Positions 7,433 through 14,843 of a DNA stretch of 35,286 bases are shown piece after piece. The translations under genes and the position numbers were made by a program. This DNA is from Bacillota bacterium (GTDB lineage: Bacteria > Bacillota > Sulfobacillia > Sulfobacillales > Sulfobacillaceae). The stretch spans positions 1-35,286 of the forward strand of contig JAKBWA010000084.1 in the NCBI GenBank assembly GCA_021841025.1. The letters run 5' to 3'. The stretch's first letter is position 1, and the number at the start of each line of letters is the position of its first letter. The notes beneath the pieces are model-generated. The model was not told the DNA's origin, searched no databases, and was given only the letters and a program-made list of their open reading frames with translations.

Positions 7433-9674
<2,242 letters not shown>

Positions 9675-9702
9675 TGGACTCTCCTCTCTTGGCTGAAGGT
9701 TC

Positions 9703-10221
9703 TCACTTTCTGTTCTCACAAACACTACACAAACGATAGGACTTCAGGGTAGGGCTCCCGCACCTGGCACAAGGTTGGTACCCTTCTTTGAGCCATTTTC
9801 TCACAGCCTTATGGTAATTGACTTCGACCCGATCAATGAGGGTATTGAGGTTATCGGTTTTAGGTTTGATACGCCCTATTCTGACAGAAACTTCGCCTTT
9901 TCCCATGACGGGAGGTCTGAAAGCCGTCATCCAGACACGGGTTTGAATGTCGTTGACGAATGCCGTCCCCAAAAAGTTATTGATGTTATCCCTTAAGCCT
10001 GGCAGTGAGTACTGCAATTCTTGAGACCAGGATGATGATTTCACTGCCAGCGTTAAGATTTTTGGCCTATATCCAATGACCCGCGTATGCTTGGCAACGT
10101 ATTCACCGGCAATAGACTTCCAGTTAGTCTCGACCATCCATAGCAACTTAGCTGGGCGCCACGAATATTCTTCCAAGAGTCTGTCCAAAATATGCCGCAA
10201 ATCTTCGTTTTTGAACATCAT
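9703..10221 (-). CDS. DUF721/DciA-like protein with C-terminal zinc ribbon
   Basis: This 172-residue protein has the DUF721 pattern: W-x-x-I-A-G near residue 33-39, followed by a strand-rich stretch LTLAVKSSSWSQELQY. The family includes DciA, the ancestral loader of the replicative helicase in many bacteria. After the domain there is a CxxC...CxxC module (C151, C154, C165, C168) that looks like a zinc ribbon. The ATG overlaps the recF stop as ATGA, so translation is coupled. Placement between recF and gyrB is also seen in Actinobacteria. Fold-level assignment is good. Helicase loading is an inference. Confidence 0.82.
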   Translation of the reverse strand: MMFKNEDLRHILDRLLEEYSWRPAKLLWMVETNWKSIAGEYVAKHTRVIGYRPKILTLAVKSSSWSQELQYSLPGLRDNINNFLGTAFVNDIQTRVWMTAFRPPVMGKGEVSVRIGRIKPKTDNLNTLIDRVEVNYHKAVRKWLKEGYQPCARCGSPTLKSYRLCSVCENRK

Positions 10222-11299: not shown

Positions 11300-12412
11300 T
11301 CAGACTAATTGGCGCAATGGCAATAGGACGTGAAAATATGACGAGCGATCAGGGGTGCGAATCTTTGCGGGAGATTGCACGCCGGAAAATTCGAAAATGA
11401 TGTCTTCGCTGTCCATAGACTTGATAGCGTCGAGAATATAGGTGGGGTTGAACAGGATATCGAGATCTTGTCCTTCGGTCGGACAATCCATGACTTCCTG
11501 GGCTTGACCGATTTCTTGAGCTTCGGCTGAGAGTTCGAGAACTCCAGACTCAATACGAATACGCAAGGGTGTCGAGCGATCTTTAGCGGCAATTAAGCTG
11601 ACGCGTTCTACTGCGCCCCGTAAATCGGCGGTAGGTACCCGACATTGCGTAATGTAATCCTCAGGTATGACACGATCATAATCAGGGTATTGTCCATCCA
11701 AAAGTCGTCCTGTAAATGTTAGCTTCGGTGCGGACAATTCGATAAGTCCGGATCCGAATTTCAGAGAAATCGCCTCGCTGGTGTTGATGCGTGCCCCTTC
11801 GGCTAATACTTTTGGCGATATAACGACTGATGCTTCCACATCTAAGTACTCGGGAATGGGAAGCCAGGAATGAGAAAGTCGGCTGCCATCAGTTGCCACC
11901 ATAACCAGTCGGCCAGCTTCAAGTTTGACATAAACCCCTTTGAGAATGGGTCTGGCGTCGTCTTTGGAGCAAGCAAAGAGCAGTTCCCGGCTTAATGCGA
12001 CAAGGGTTCCGGAAGGTAGGATTATGCTCTGATTTTGACCTGCGGGAATGTGGGGAAATTCAGGCAGCATGTCCTGGCCAAAGCCATTGATTACTGCAGT
12101 GTTGCGGCCGTAGCGAATAGTCGCACGGCCAGTTTGGGGATTCGATGATAATTCGAAAGTTGCCGTAGGAAGACGGTGAATCAAGTCGTTAAAAGTTGAA
12201 GCAGGTAGTACAACATAGCCGGGATCGGACACTTCACACGGAATGTCCGCGACGATGTGATTCGACAAGTCCGTGGCGGATAGTTGGAGCCGTCCGTCTC
12301 GGGCCTCGAGTTGCACGCCCGTGGCAATGGCCATGGTATTTTGAGGCTGAATCACACGAATGACTTGCTGTAAAGCCGAAGCTGTTTCATCTTGGGTGGC
12401 ACTGAACTTCAT
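11300..12412 (-). CDS. dnaN: DNA polymerase III beta subunit (sliding clamp)
   Basis: DnaN forms the ring that tethers DNA polymerase III to the template. The 370-residue length fits three clamp domains, and recognisable segments include TGVQLEA near residue 29, GQYPDYDRVIP in the middle and the C-terminal SSYFHVLLPLR, where the partner-binding pocket is completed. GAGGAGG lies about ten bases upstream of the ATG. dnaA lies on the same strand beyond the 279-base origin spacer, and recF follows after two bases. Confidence 0.97.
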   Translation of the reverse strand: MKFSATQDETASALQQVIRVIQPQNTMAIATGVQLEARDGRLQLSATDLSNHIVADIPCEVSDPGYVVLPASTFNDLIHRLPTATFELSSNPQTGRATIRYGRNTAVINGFGQDMLPEFPHIPAGQNQSIILPSGTLVALSRELLFACSKDDARPILKGVYVKLEAGRLVMVATDGSRLSHSWLPIPEYLDVEASVVISPKVLAEGARINTSEAISLKFGSGLIELSAPKLTFTGRLLDGQYPDYDRVIPEDYITQCRVPTADLRGAVERVSLIAAKDRSTPLRIRIESGVLELSAEAQEIGQAQEVMDCPTEGQDLDILFNPTYILDAIKSMDSEDIIFEFSGVQSPAKIRTPDRSSYFHVLLPLRQLV

Positions 12413-12691
12413 GGGTTGGAAATCCTCCTCAATGTCGCTAAATTTGCCACAGTTATGATCATTAGTGTATTAAGTATTGATCAAATCCGTAGTAATAATA
12501 AGGGCTGGGGATAATATGGAAAACTCCCCAAACCCTTGTGGGTACTGGCTTCGAGGAGTTGTCTCCTCGTGAATAAGCGGTGGATAAAAAAGGGGACAAA
12601 TGGGGATAAAAATCGAGAAATTTTTTGGGCTGTGCATAACTTGACATTGTTCCACATAAAATCCCCCATTTCTCCCAAAGTTATACACAGG
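12413..12691. other. oriC: oriC, dnaA-dnaN spacer with DnaA boxes
   Basis: This gene-free spacer holds several DnaA-box-like sequences. On the plus strand TTATACACA is at 12681-12689. On the minus strand TTATGCACA is at 12639-12631, TTATCCCCA at 12609-12601, TTATCCACC at 12587-12579 and TTATCCCCA at 12514-12506, with a weaker one near 12543-12535. An AT-rich patch (AAATTTTTT) is near 12620. A 7-bp hairpin CGAGGAG/CTCCTCG lies at 12552-12569. The dnaA-dnaN spacer is the classic site of Firmicute oriC unwinding. The dnaN promoter should also be here, but I could not assign one clearly. Confidence 0.85.
12490..12514 (-). promoter_or_regulatory. Candidate DnaA-trio unwinding element
   Basis: Plus-strand triplets TAG-TAA-TAA-TAA (12490-12501) are followed by a GGGC spacer and then a DnaA-box-like TGGGGATAA (12506-12514). 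This order (box, GC-rich spacer, repeated 3'-(G/A)A(T/A)-5' triplets) is the arrangement described for the basal unwinding system of B. subtilis. Only one adjacent box is clear, so the match is suggestive. Confidence 0.6.
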
Positions 12692-14086
12692 CTATAAGCG
12701 TGATCTGATACGGTTTGTCAGCGATTCGACGAGTTGTGCCAGTTGGGGATCTTCCTGAAGTTCTTGGTGGATTTTTTCGCACGCATGGATGACTGTGGTG
12801 TGATCACGTCCGCCGAAGTCTTCTCCGATGCGGGGAAGGCTGGCGTCAGTTAATTGGCGGGCTAGGTACATGGCGACTTGTCTGGGAAATGCGACGTTTC
12901 TGGTCCGAGTTTTGGCCTTGAGATCAGTCACCTGGAGTTCGAAGTGTTTGACGACTTCTTCTTGAATGAGGCGGATAGTGATAGGTTTGGGCGTAGCATG
13001 GGGAAGCACGTCTTTTAACGCTTCCAGGGCTAGCTCTGTCGTCAAAGGTTGTCGGGTGATGGAACCATAGGCCATGACGCGAATCAGTGCTCCTTCCAGT
13101 TCGCGAATGTTTGTATCGACGCGTGTTGCAATGAACTGAAGAACAGTGTCGGGAACATAAAGGTTTTCCAGTTGTGCCTTTTTGGCCAGGATAGCAATTC
13201 GGGTCTCCAAGTCGGGAGGCTGAATGTCGGTGATCAATCCCCACTCGAATCGTGAACGCAGGCGTTCCTCCAGTGTGGGGATGTCTTTCGGGGGACGGTC
13301 GCTGGAGATGACGATTTGCTTGTGCGCACCGTGAAGAGCCTCGAACGTATGGAAAAACTCTTCCTGAGTGCGTTCTTTACCAGCTACAAATTGAATATCG
13401 TCAATTAAGAGTACATCAATGTTGCGGTAGCGCTGGCGAAAGCGGACCATTTTGTCGTCGCGAATGGCATTGATCATCTCGTTAGTGAAATTTTCTGAAG
13501 AGACATACAGTACTCGTGAATGAGGAGAACCACTTAGAACATGATGCCCAATAGCGTGCATCAAGTGCGTCTTACCCAGTCCGACACCGCCGTAGAGAAA
13601 AAGAGGATTATAAGCGCGTGCAGGCATTTCGGCTACGGCTTGACAGGCTGCGTGAGCAAAGCGGTTGGAGACCCCCACCACGAACGCTTCAAAAACGTAC
13701 TTGGGATTGAGACGGGTGTGAAATTCGGATTCTGATGTCTCTGATACTTCCTGGCTAGGAGAAGATGGTGTTGGTTCAGATGCGGAAACGGGCAACGGTA
13801 AGGTTTTGTCGTTGTCTGTAATATCCGGTGATTTTGGTGTCAGAATTAAATGAACATCGATGGGGCGACCGGCGGATTGAGCCAAGACGTCTCGGAGCAA
13901 ACCGGTATACCGGCTTGCTATTATTTGGCGTACGAAGTCGGAGGGTACGGCCAAATCCAGGACACCGTCATCTAAAGAGAGCGGAAATACTTGGCGTACC
14001 CAGGCTTCGAGGCTGGGTGTAGATAATTCGCTTTCGAGTCGTGCAACCGTGTCTGCCCACAGACTTTCCAAGCCGACCTCAAGCAT
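12692..14086 (-). CDS. dnaA: Chromosomal replication initiator DnaA
   Basis: DnaA binds oriC boxes and opens the duplex to start replication. From the ATG at 14086 the protein is 464 residues (start MLEVGLESLW). Domain I covers about 1-85 and a low-complexity Ser/Pro/Glu linker covers about 95-130. The AAA+ domain has Walker A GGVGLGKTH and Walker B LLIDDIQFVAGKERTQEEFFHTF, and the C-terminal DNA-binding domain carries GGRDHTTVIHACEKI. AGGGGG lies upstream of this ATG. The open frame extends to 14134, but that would run into the DnaA-box region and add residues without family similarity. Confidence 0.98.
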   Translation of the reverse strand: MLEVGLESLWADTVARLESELSTPSLEAWVRQVFPLSLDDGVLDLAVPSDFVRQIIASRYTGLLRDVLAQSAGRPIDVHLILTPKSPDITDNDKTLPLPVSASEPTPSSPSQEVSETSESEFHTRLNPKYVFEAFVVGVSNRFAHAACQAVAEMPARAYNPLFLYGGVGLGKTHLMHAIGHHVLSGSPHSRVLYVSSENFTNEMINAIRDDKMVRFRQRYRNIDVLLIDDIQFVAGKERTQEEFFHTFEALHGAHKQIVISSDRPPKDIPTLEERLRSRFEWGLITDIQPPDLETRIAILAKKAQLENLYVPDTVLQFIATRVDTNIRELEGALIRVMAYGSITRQPLTTELALEALKDVLPHATPKPITIRLIQEEVVKHFELQVTDLKAKTRTRNVAFPRQVAMYLARQLTDASLPRIGEDFGGRDHTTVIHACEKIHQELQEDPQLAQLVESLTNRIRSRL

Positions 14087-14126
14087 TAAATAATTCCCCC
14101 TAAATGTGAACAGGAAATCCACAACG

Positions 14127-14147
14127 TTATCCACAAACTGTGGATAA
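14127..14147. promoter_or_regulatory. Inverted pair of consensus DnaA boxes
   Basis: TTATCCACA (14127-14135, plus) and TGTGGATAA (14139-14147) are two perfect consensus boxes facing each other with a three-base spacer. A weaker AAATCCACA is at 14116-14124. They lie between the dnaA promoter and the dnaA start codon, a position suited both to origin function and to autorepression of dnaA. Confidence 0.85.
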
Positions 14148-14194
14148 CAGTCCTAAAAATAATGAACGTCTCCGACCCGCGGAGAAGTGGATTT

Positions 14195-14223
14195 ATGATA
14201 ACAAATTCGGACAAGGCTCTCAA
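14195..14223 (-). promoter_or_regulatory. dnaA promoter
   Basis: On the minus strand TTGAGA (14223-14218) and TATCAT (14200-14195) are 17 bases apart. The predicted transcript would start near 14188 and run through the inverted DnaA boxes into dnaA. It is back to back with the rpmH promoter. Confidence 0.6.
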
Positions 14224-14268
14224 TGAACTGGCGAAGAAAAAGGGTGCAGTAAATTCAGTGACGATTTC

Positions 14269-14297
14269 TTGACCAACCTATAAGAGGTCGATATAAT
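14269..14297 (+). promoter_or_regulatory. rpmH promoter
   Basis: TTGACC (14269-14274) and a perfect TATAAT (14292-14297) are separated by 17 bases, 38 bases before the rpmH start. This is a strong housekeeping promoter for the rpmH-rnpA-yidD-yidC transcript. Confidence 0.75.
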
Positions 14298-14334
14298 TAA
14301 AATACATTTGCGTCAAAGTCTGGAGGTGACTTCT

Positions 14335-14469
14335 GTGAAGCGAACCTATCAGCCAAATCGTCGCCACCGGGCAAAAGTTCACGGTTTTAGAAAACGCATG
14401 TCTACCAGAGCGGGGCGTATGGTACTCAAACGAAGGCGGCTTAAGGGACGTAAGCGTTTGGCGGGATAA
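14335..14469 (+). CDS. rpmH: Ribosomal protein L34
   Basis: This 44-residue, very basic protein starts with GTG and reads [18 protein letters not shown], then [11 protein letters not shown] and [11 protein letters not shown], the standard L34 sequence. It is a small component of the large ribosomal subunit. GGAGGT lies about eight bases upstream. It diverges from dnaA, as in most bacteria, and its stop codon overlaps the rnpA start by one base (TAATG). Confidence 0.97.
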
Positions 14470-14843
14470 TGGCTCAATTTCATCGGCTTAAAAGACATTC
14501 TGATTTTGGTCGTGTTTTCCGAATGGGACGTACCGTAGGGGACCGTAATATGGTCCTTTTCATTCTAACGAGTGAAAGTAAGACGCCCAAGATAGGATTT
14601 GCGACACAACGATCAGCAGGTTCAGCGGTGAAACGGAATCGCATTCGTCGGCGAATCCGGGCGCTGTTTTCTGTTTTTGCGGAGGAGATTACTCCATGCG
14701 GGGACCTGATTCTTTTGGGCAAAAAGCCGGTTTTGACGGCGGATTGGAATAGTCTGGTGCGGTCAATGCGGAAACTGTTATTAAAAGCAGGGTGTCTCAA
14801 GAAAGAAAGCTGCGGACGACAAAAAGGCAGGGAGAAAGAATGA
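14469..14843 (+). CDS. rnpA: Ribonuclease P protein component
   Basis: RnpA is the protein partner of the RNase P ribozyme that matures tRNA 5' ends. The 124-residue protein starts [17 protein letters not shown] after Met and carries the RNR-type signature [16 protein letters not shown] near residues 52-67. The ATG overlaps the rpmH stop by one base, and the stop overlaps yidD as ATGA. The C-terminal tail ([14 protein letters not shown]) is basic and non-conserved. Confidence 0.95.

Follow-up and report, generated by a model that had tools for sequence, protein, structure and literature searches.

The window, which is the whole stretch of 35,286 nucleotides of DNA that was analysed, carries rpmH and rnpA on its + strand and dnaA, dnaN, a RecF-like gene, and dciA on its – strand (Table 1). 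Two further – strand genes are presumably gyrB and gyrA, and a RemA-like protein (PF04025) is encoded at 9396–9725 (–), upstream of the gyrB-like gene. The cumulative GC skew of the window turns at about 10 kb, approximately 2.5 kb from the element described below. Two perfect, opposed DnaA boxes are found in the spacer between rpmH and dnaA, and the origin therefore looks bipartite, like those of B. subtilis and C. difficile.

Table 1. Features of the replication origin region, in window coordinates
Feature	Position	Strand	Remarks
dciA, DciA-family helicase operator (PF05258)	9703–10221	–	beside recF-like and gyrB-like genes
dnaN	11300–12412	–	
dnaA–dnaN spacer, oriC2-type region	12413–12691		279 bp; 11 box-like sites with at most two mismatches
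Least stable 40-bp stretch, probable DNA unwinding element	12461–12501		overlaps and follows the trios; centre 12481
Fifth in-register trio	12487–12489	+	3′-GCC-5′, central C
DnaA-trios 1–4	12490–12501	+	5′-TAG TAA TAA TAA-3′, i.e., 3′-AAT AAT AAT GAT-5′ away from the box
GC-rich spacer	12502–12505		4 nt, GCCC on the dnaA strand
Trio-proximal DnaA box	12506–12514	–	TTATCCCCA, one mismatch, C at position 7
Upstream DnaA box of the tandem pair	12515–12523	–	TTTTCCATA, two mismatches
dnaA	12692–14086	–	464 aa if started at ATG; the frame is open from a GTG at 14134 as well
Perfect DnaA box, rpmH–dnaA spacer (oriC1-type region)	14127–14135	+	TTATCCACA
Perfect DnaA box of opposite orientation, rpmH–dnaA spacer	14139–14147	–	

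The element in the dnaA–dnaN spacer reads, on the dnaA strand from 12523 down to 12487, TTTTCCATA / TTATCCCCA / GCCC / TTA TTA TTA CTA CGG. A preliminary description had marked 12490–12514, with the sequence TAGTAATAATAAGGGCTGGGGATAA, as a DnaA-trio-like unwinding element; its coordinates and letters were exact to the base, and the element is wider, as it also includes the second box and the fifth triplet. The same description held that the TAG-TAA-TAA-TAA triplets, the GC-rich spacer, and the box follow the order of the basal unwinding system (BUS) of B. subtilis, and the order, strand, spacing, and second co-oriented box all fit this proposal. Reading the site as an unwinding element is further supported by the unstable DNA at the trios and by the trio-reading residues of DnaA. 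The run of six box-like sites noted earlier is a fair count that depends on the threshold, as five sites lie within one mismatch of TTATCCACA and 11 within two. Dinucleotide shuffles (2000) gave means of 0.13 and 1.3 sites, respectively, and none of them reached either real count.

Each feature of the BUS was compared with the element. At most two mismatches were allowed in one box and at most 4 in a second, co-oriented one, and here TTATCCCCA (one mismatch) and the co-oriented TTTTCCATA (two mismatches) are separated by a gap of 0. The spacer, which in a BUS has at most 16 nt and is often GC-rich, is the 4-nt GCCC. A BUS has at least three consecutive in-register 3′-NAN-5′ trios; the window has four, complementary to the TTATCCACA strand of the box and pointing away from it, and with centres of A, A, A, A, and C its own array is near textbook. 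Duplex stability, compared in 40-bp stretches over 2.8 kb (11801–14600), is lowest at this site. The window's DnaA has B. subtilis E183, N187, I190, I193, R202, K222, E228, and R264 at the aligned positions, and the equivalents of the arginine finger and trio-binding residues (all of these except E183) are thus present; the eight residues are identical in 30/30 family genomes. At position 196, the contact to the third base, the window has D in place of N, and this position varies in every group. Collectively, as far as sequence can tell, the element has all the testable features of a BUS.

The search for DnaA yielded loci in 30 of the 34 family genomes, the window included, while four gave no dnaA match. 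The 30 family spacers form a gap-free alignment over the triplets, and the first YTA triplet starts 4 nt past the proximal box in all 30 genomes, with a detection score that favoured a spacer of 4. When box pairs were detected blind to the triplets, YTA was the first triplet in 29/30 family loci. The element at 12487–12523 is the most conserved 37-nt block of the family dnaA–dnaN spacer (1.36 bits vs. a mean of 0.68 in 30 genomes). The second most conserved block of this spacer is 12652–12688 (0.92 bits), and box-like sites of opposite orientation occur beside it at 12631–12656. According to the preliminary description, triplets that are not conserved in close relatives would speak against an unwinding element. 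In this comparison, an array stands at the same place in 30/30 family genomes but the exact triplets are not kept, and the relatives share a looser rule of purine, A or C, and T on the trio strand. The rule stops after five units, as the centre of unit 6 is T or G (dnaA strand) in 14/30 loci, which is the background level. At least three in-register NAN trios are present in 9/30 family and 0/7 order genomes; if C is allowed at the centre, the counts become 28/30 and 7/7.

Within the genus, TTATCCCCA is the identical proximal 9-mer in the seven genomes with a dnaA match, the eighth genome being incomplete and yielding no such match. The upstream box is TTATCCACA in two genus relatives (L083 and L084). 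These two also share with the window TGATCATAACT at 12451–12461, which follows the unstable stretch and precedes the dnaN ribosome-binding site.

In the class outside the order, dnaA was matched in 110 genomes, of which 72 were read, and in the phylum in a further 153, of which 105 were read. An anchored BUS, defined by tandem boxes, a 4-nt spacer, and YTA as the first triplet, is present in 30/30 family, 7/8 order, 34/72 class, and 72/105 phylum loci; the eighth order locus is cut by a contig end, and arrays of another design are not represented in the anchored set. In L157, L162, L164, and partly L145, from genomes with a DnaD domain, tandem boxes and a single YTA are followed, in the place of the trio array, by two palindrome-like units of the CAATGAYCATTG type. 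Before counting, L001, L112 (a region of L113), and L179, L181, and L185 (duplicates of L127, L129, and L130) were dropped. The 80 named loci were excluded from the tree and the DnaD tables, and the weights for box scoring were set by hand.

Compared to the B. subtilis BUS, the element has the same pair of co-oriented tandem boxes, short GC spacer, dnaA–dnaN location, and DnaA pocket residues, and its triplets are likewise of the 3′-GAT-5′ type on the opposite strand. It differs in several respects. The boxes stand end to end (gap 0) in the seven loci of the window's genus, whereas they overlap by one base in 23/27 detected loci among L003–L031 (mostly Bacillus and Clostridium relatives). Of the two boxes in the window, the proximal one is closer to the consensus and has C at position 7. 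Furthermore, C is the centre of trio 5 in the window and often of trios 3–5 in its relatives, and no DnaD domain was found. The C. difficile oriC2, as far as the source was covered (PMC7561715), is similar in spacer, strand, and order, with box clusters in both spacers of a bipartite origin; its CTA/TTA triplets are followed by an unstable region, and the six printed triplets all have central A. DnaA-dependent unwinding was measured there, whereas the window element is known from its sequence.

In the literature, the trio centre is given as a conserved A, which the published search pattern also demands (PMC8287927); a 2026 review, in the part covered, still gives NAN (PMC13220808). In the 30 family loci, with detection blind to the trios, the centres of trios 2–5 on the trio strand are A in 56, C in 59, G in 4, and T in 1 of 120 cases, i.e., A or C in 115/120 (A, C, G, and T of the trio strand correspond to T, G, C, and A on the dnaA or top strand). 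Trio 1 has central A in 30/30 and trio 2 in 28/30. The DnaA tree of the family and order (37 genomes) has 21 changes at the centres of the five trios; 16 of them exchange A and C, and none exchanges A and G. At the four-fold dnaA sites of the same tree (91 columns), the same base pair (T and G) was exchanged in 134 of 1291 changes and T and C in 252, giving p = 2e-12 for the excess at the centres if changes are treated as independent. The first and third trio bases change mostly by transitions (30/36 and 8.5/11 on this tree), and the transversion is thus peculiar to the centre.

Similar results were obtained outside the order. The trio-strand centres of the 106 other anchored genomes (34 class and 72 phylum) are A in 346, C in 58, T in 11, and G in 9 cases. 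Along their tree, changes from central A led to C in 40, T in 6.4, and G in 5.6 of 52 cases, compared to 101, 182, and 222 of 505 for the same base changes at silent four-fold dnaA sites (p = 1.7e-18 for 40/52 vs. 101/505). Triplets lying between central-A trios in the class, phylum, and named loci have A in 317, C in 37, T in 9, and G in 2 cases. With trio-blind detection and no filter, C is in excess among the non-A centres of the class (C 41, G 22, T 20) and named loci (C 19, G 1, T 8), but the phylum sample without the first-triplet filter has no such excess (C 24, G 22, T 20). The excess appears there once loci with a first triplet other than YTA, probably mis-called sites that supply mixed centre bases, are set aside. 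These comparisons of relatives suggested that the centre of the trio code accepts C besides A in natural arrays, and among the groups sampled the A/C centre is, judging from these counts, most developed in the window's order.

Experiments in B. subtilis, cited here from the covered part of a 2023 structure paper (PMC10721633), point in the same direction. The central base faces Asn187 in the BUS structure, and cytosine shares its amino group with adenine. Replacement of central A by C allowed strand separation in vitro at a similar rate, and cells with central C grew faster than those with G or T. Its authors considered that homologues of DnaA may recognise a variety of sequences. The natural A/C counts agree with this published substitution; within the limited literature covered, and as far as its sources go, central C is treated only in that paper and natural central-C trios are undescribed. 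Altered DnaA contacts are not supported as the cause of central C, as E183, N187, R202, K222, E228, and R264 are unchanged in 38/38 loci of the family and order; in 4/8 order loci, V and L replace I190 and I193. The best explanation of the alternation of A and C is selection for a base with an exocyclic amino group, which would contact the asparagine that corresponds to N187 of B. subtilis.

The docking boxes of the family (12506–12523 in the window; L082–L111) have C at position 7 far more commonly than those of the other class and phylum genomes sampled. In the anchored set, this C is present in the proximal box of 22/30 family, 4/7 order, 3/34 class, and 5/72 phylum loci, and in the upstream box of 13/30, 7/7, 4/34, and 1/72, respectively. 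C at position 7 of the 9-mer, present at 12506–12514, marks the ATP-DnaA boxes of E. coli, C. crescentus, and H. pylori (PMC8235120, as covered in part). The remainder of TTATCCCCA is consensus, and on this likeness, a matter of sequence, docking at C7 boxes is possibly specific for ATP-DnaA.

The element is probably the basal unwinding system of the chromosome's oriC2, a reading to which we assign a probability of nearly nine in ten, and the stretch is very probably the site where the chromosome first opens for replication. If the element works as in B. subtilis, two DnaA molecules would dock on the tandem boxes, and a DnaA-ATP filament would grow from them across the 4-nt GC spacer onto the + strand of the window. 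In each triplet, the first two bases, a purine and then A or C, would be captured by adjacent protomers, and the captured strand would be pulled from the duplex, so that the unstable DNA around 12461–12501 opens. Some observations stand against this reading. The window has a weak upstream box (two mismatches), and it is this box of the pair that strand separation requires in B. subtilis, according to the covered part of PMC8287927. In addition, trios 1–3 have A as their first base, and in B. subtilis an origin whose six trios were all AA was defective (PMC10721633, in part).

The triplets could be a by-product of base composition in a merely AT-rich, easily melted stretch beside DnaA boxes. 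The site is indeed the least stable 40 bp of the region, and a loose BUS pattern (our own rendering of the published one, with a box of at most two mismatches and three NAN) is met by 1590/5000 shuffles, on both strands of the real spacer, and at 37 box positions in the 35-kb window. This pattern alone would prove little, as it is so common, and it was rejected as a test of significance. A strict motif, consisting of a box with at most one mismatch and four [CT]TA triplets within the next 16 nt, was found in 0/5000 shuffles on either strand and in the 35-kb window at this site alone. Furthermore, the three-base rule and the 4-nt spacer are kept in 30/30 family genomes, the relatives carry C:G pairs inside the array, which melting alone does not favour, and A-to-G changes are rare despite the equal gain of a C:G pair. 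An explanation by composition is therefore very improbable. That the triplets belong to the dnaN promoter or to the site of another regulator is barely credible: they are AT-rich and upstream of dnaN, but their register relative to the two boxes is fixed and they repeat every 3 nt for five units. An additional, overlapping function of this kind is conceivable.

With regard to the centre base, mutation pressure towards G+C, rather than recognition by DnaA, is a quite unlikely source of the alternation. Central C does rise with the third-position G+C of dnaA (regression coefficient 2.7, class and phylum). However, at a third-position G+C of 0.50–0.65, central C amounts to 53% in the family and order vs. 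18% in DnaD-positive and 9% in DnaD-negative others. Such pressure should also yield A-to-G changes, which number 5.6 vs. 40 A-to-C changes in the 106 genomes, and the preference is missing at silent dnaA sites. Thus, G+C content plays a part, but it does not account for the central C of the family. It is also unlikely, though less so, that reading of TnnT by DnaD holds central A in place and that loss of DnaD freed the position in the order. DnaD binds 5′-TnnT-3′ opposite the trios (PMC10201434, as covered in part), and central C should therefore break its site; this is the case in 21/30 family genomes, because their run of central A ends before the third trio. The DnaD domain PF07261 is over the cut-off in 0 family or order genomes (drafts, in which absence is not proof), in 17/154 class genomes, and in 112/159 genomes of the phylum sample, where the 112 listed positives are the full tally and all others were scored as lacking the domain. 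At a third-position G+C of dnaA below 0.35 in the class and phylum, 19 genomes with the domain have 0/76 central C and nine without it have 8/36. Outside the order, however, a regression that includes G+C leaves no effect of DnaD presence (coefficient –0.10), and loss of DnaD is unsupported as a general cause; central C is 2/40 without vs. 6/60 with the domain at G+C of 0.35–0.50, and 3/32 vs. 8/44 at 0.50–0.65. The family and order form one clade and hence a single event, and two weak matches lie below the cut-off (G025 of the family, E 8e-4; G117 of the order, E 0.001).

The window itself, with top-strand centres T, T, T, and T, has in its sequence the at least two 5′-TnnT-3′ motifs opposite the trios that are expected of a DnaD recognition element. 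No protein with a DnaD domain was found in its genome (97% complete, a draft in which absence is not proof), while the B. subtilis and L. lactis controls scored with PF07261. In this genome, the DciA-family protein may be the one that delivers the helicase.

The element is probably a further example of the known BUS type, and the comparison of centre bases is the added result. Our general view, held at slightly better than even odds, is that the natural code is 3′-purine, A or C, T-5′ rather than NAN, that DnaA reads the central amino group, and that A and C have been exchanged repeatedly among lineages. The window's order would have gone furthest, with distal trios often central-C and docking boxes shifted to C7. 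Such an origin would work without DnaD although its opening element is richer in G:C pairs and its docking sites are of low affinity and possibly specific for ATP-DnaA. An origin finder that allows A or C would yield more in-register arrays, as in the family (28/30 vs. 9/30). Natural arrays use C in the direction that the amino-group model predicts, and the comparison indicates origins in which the model can be tested.
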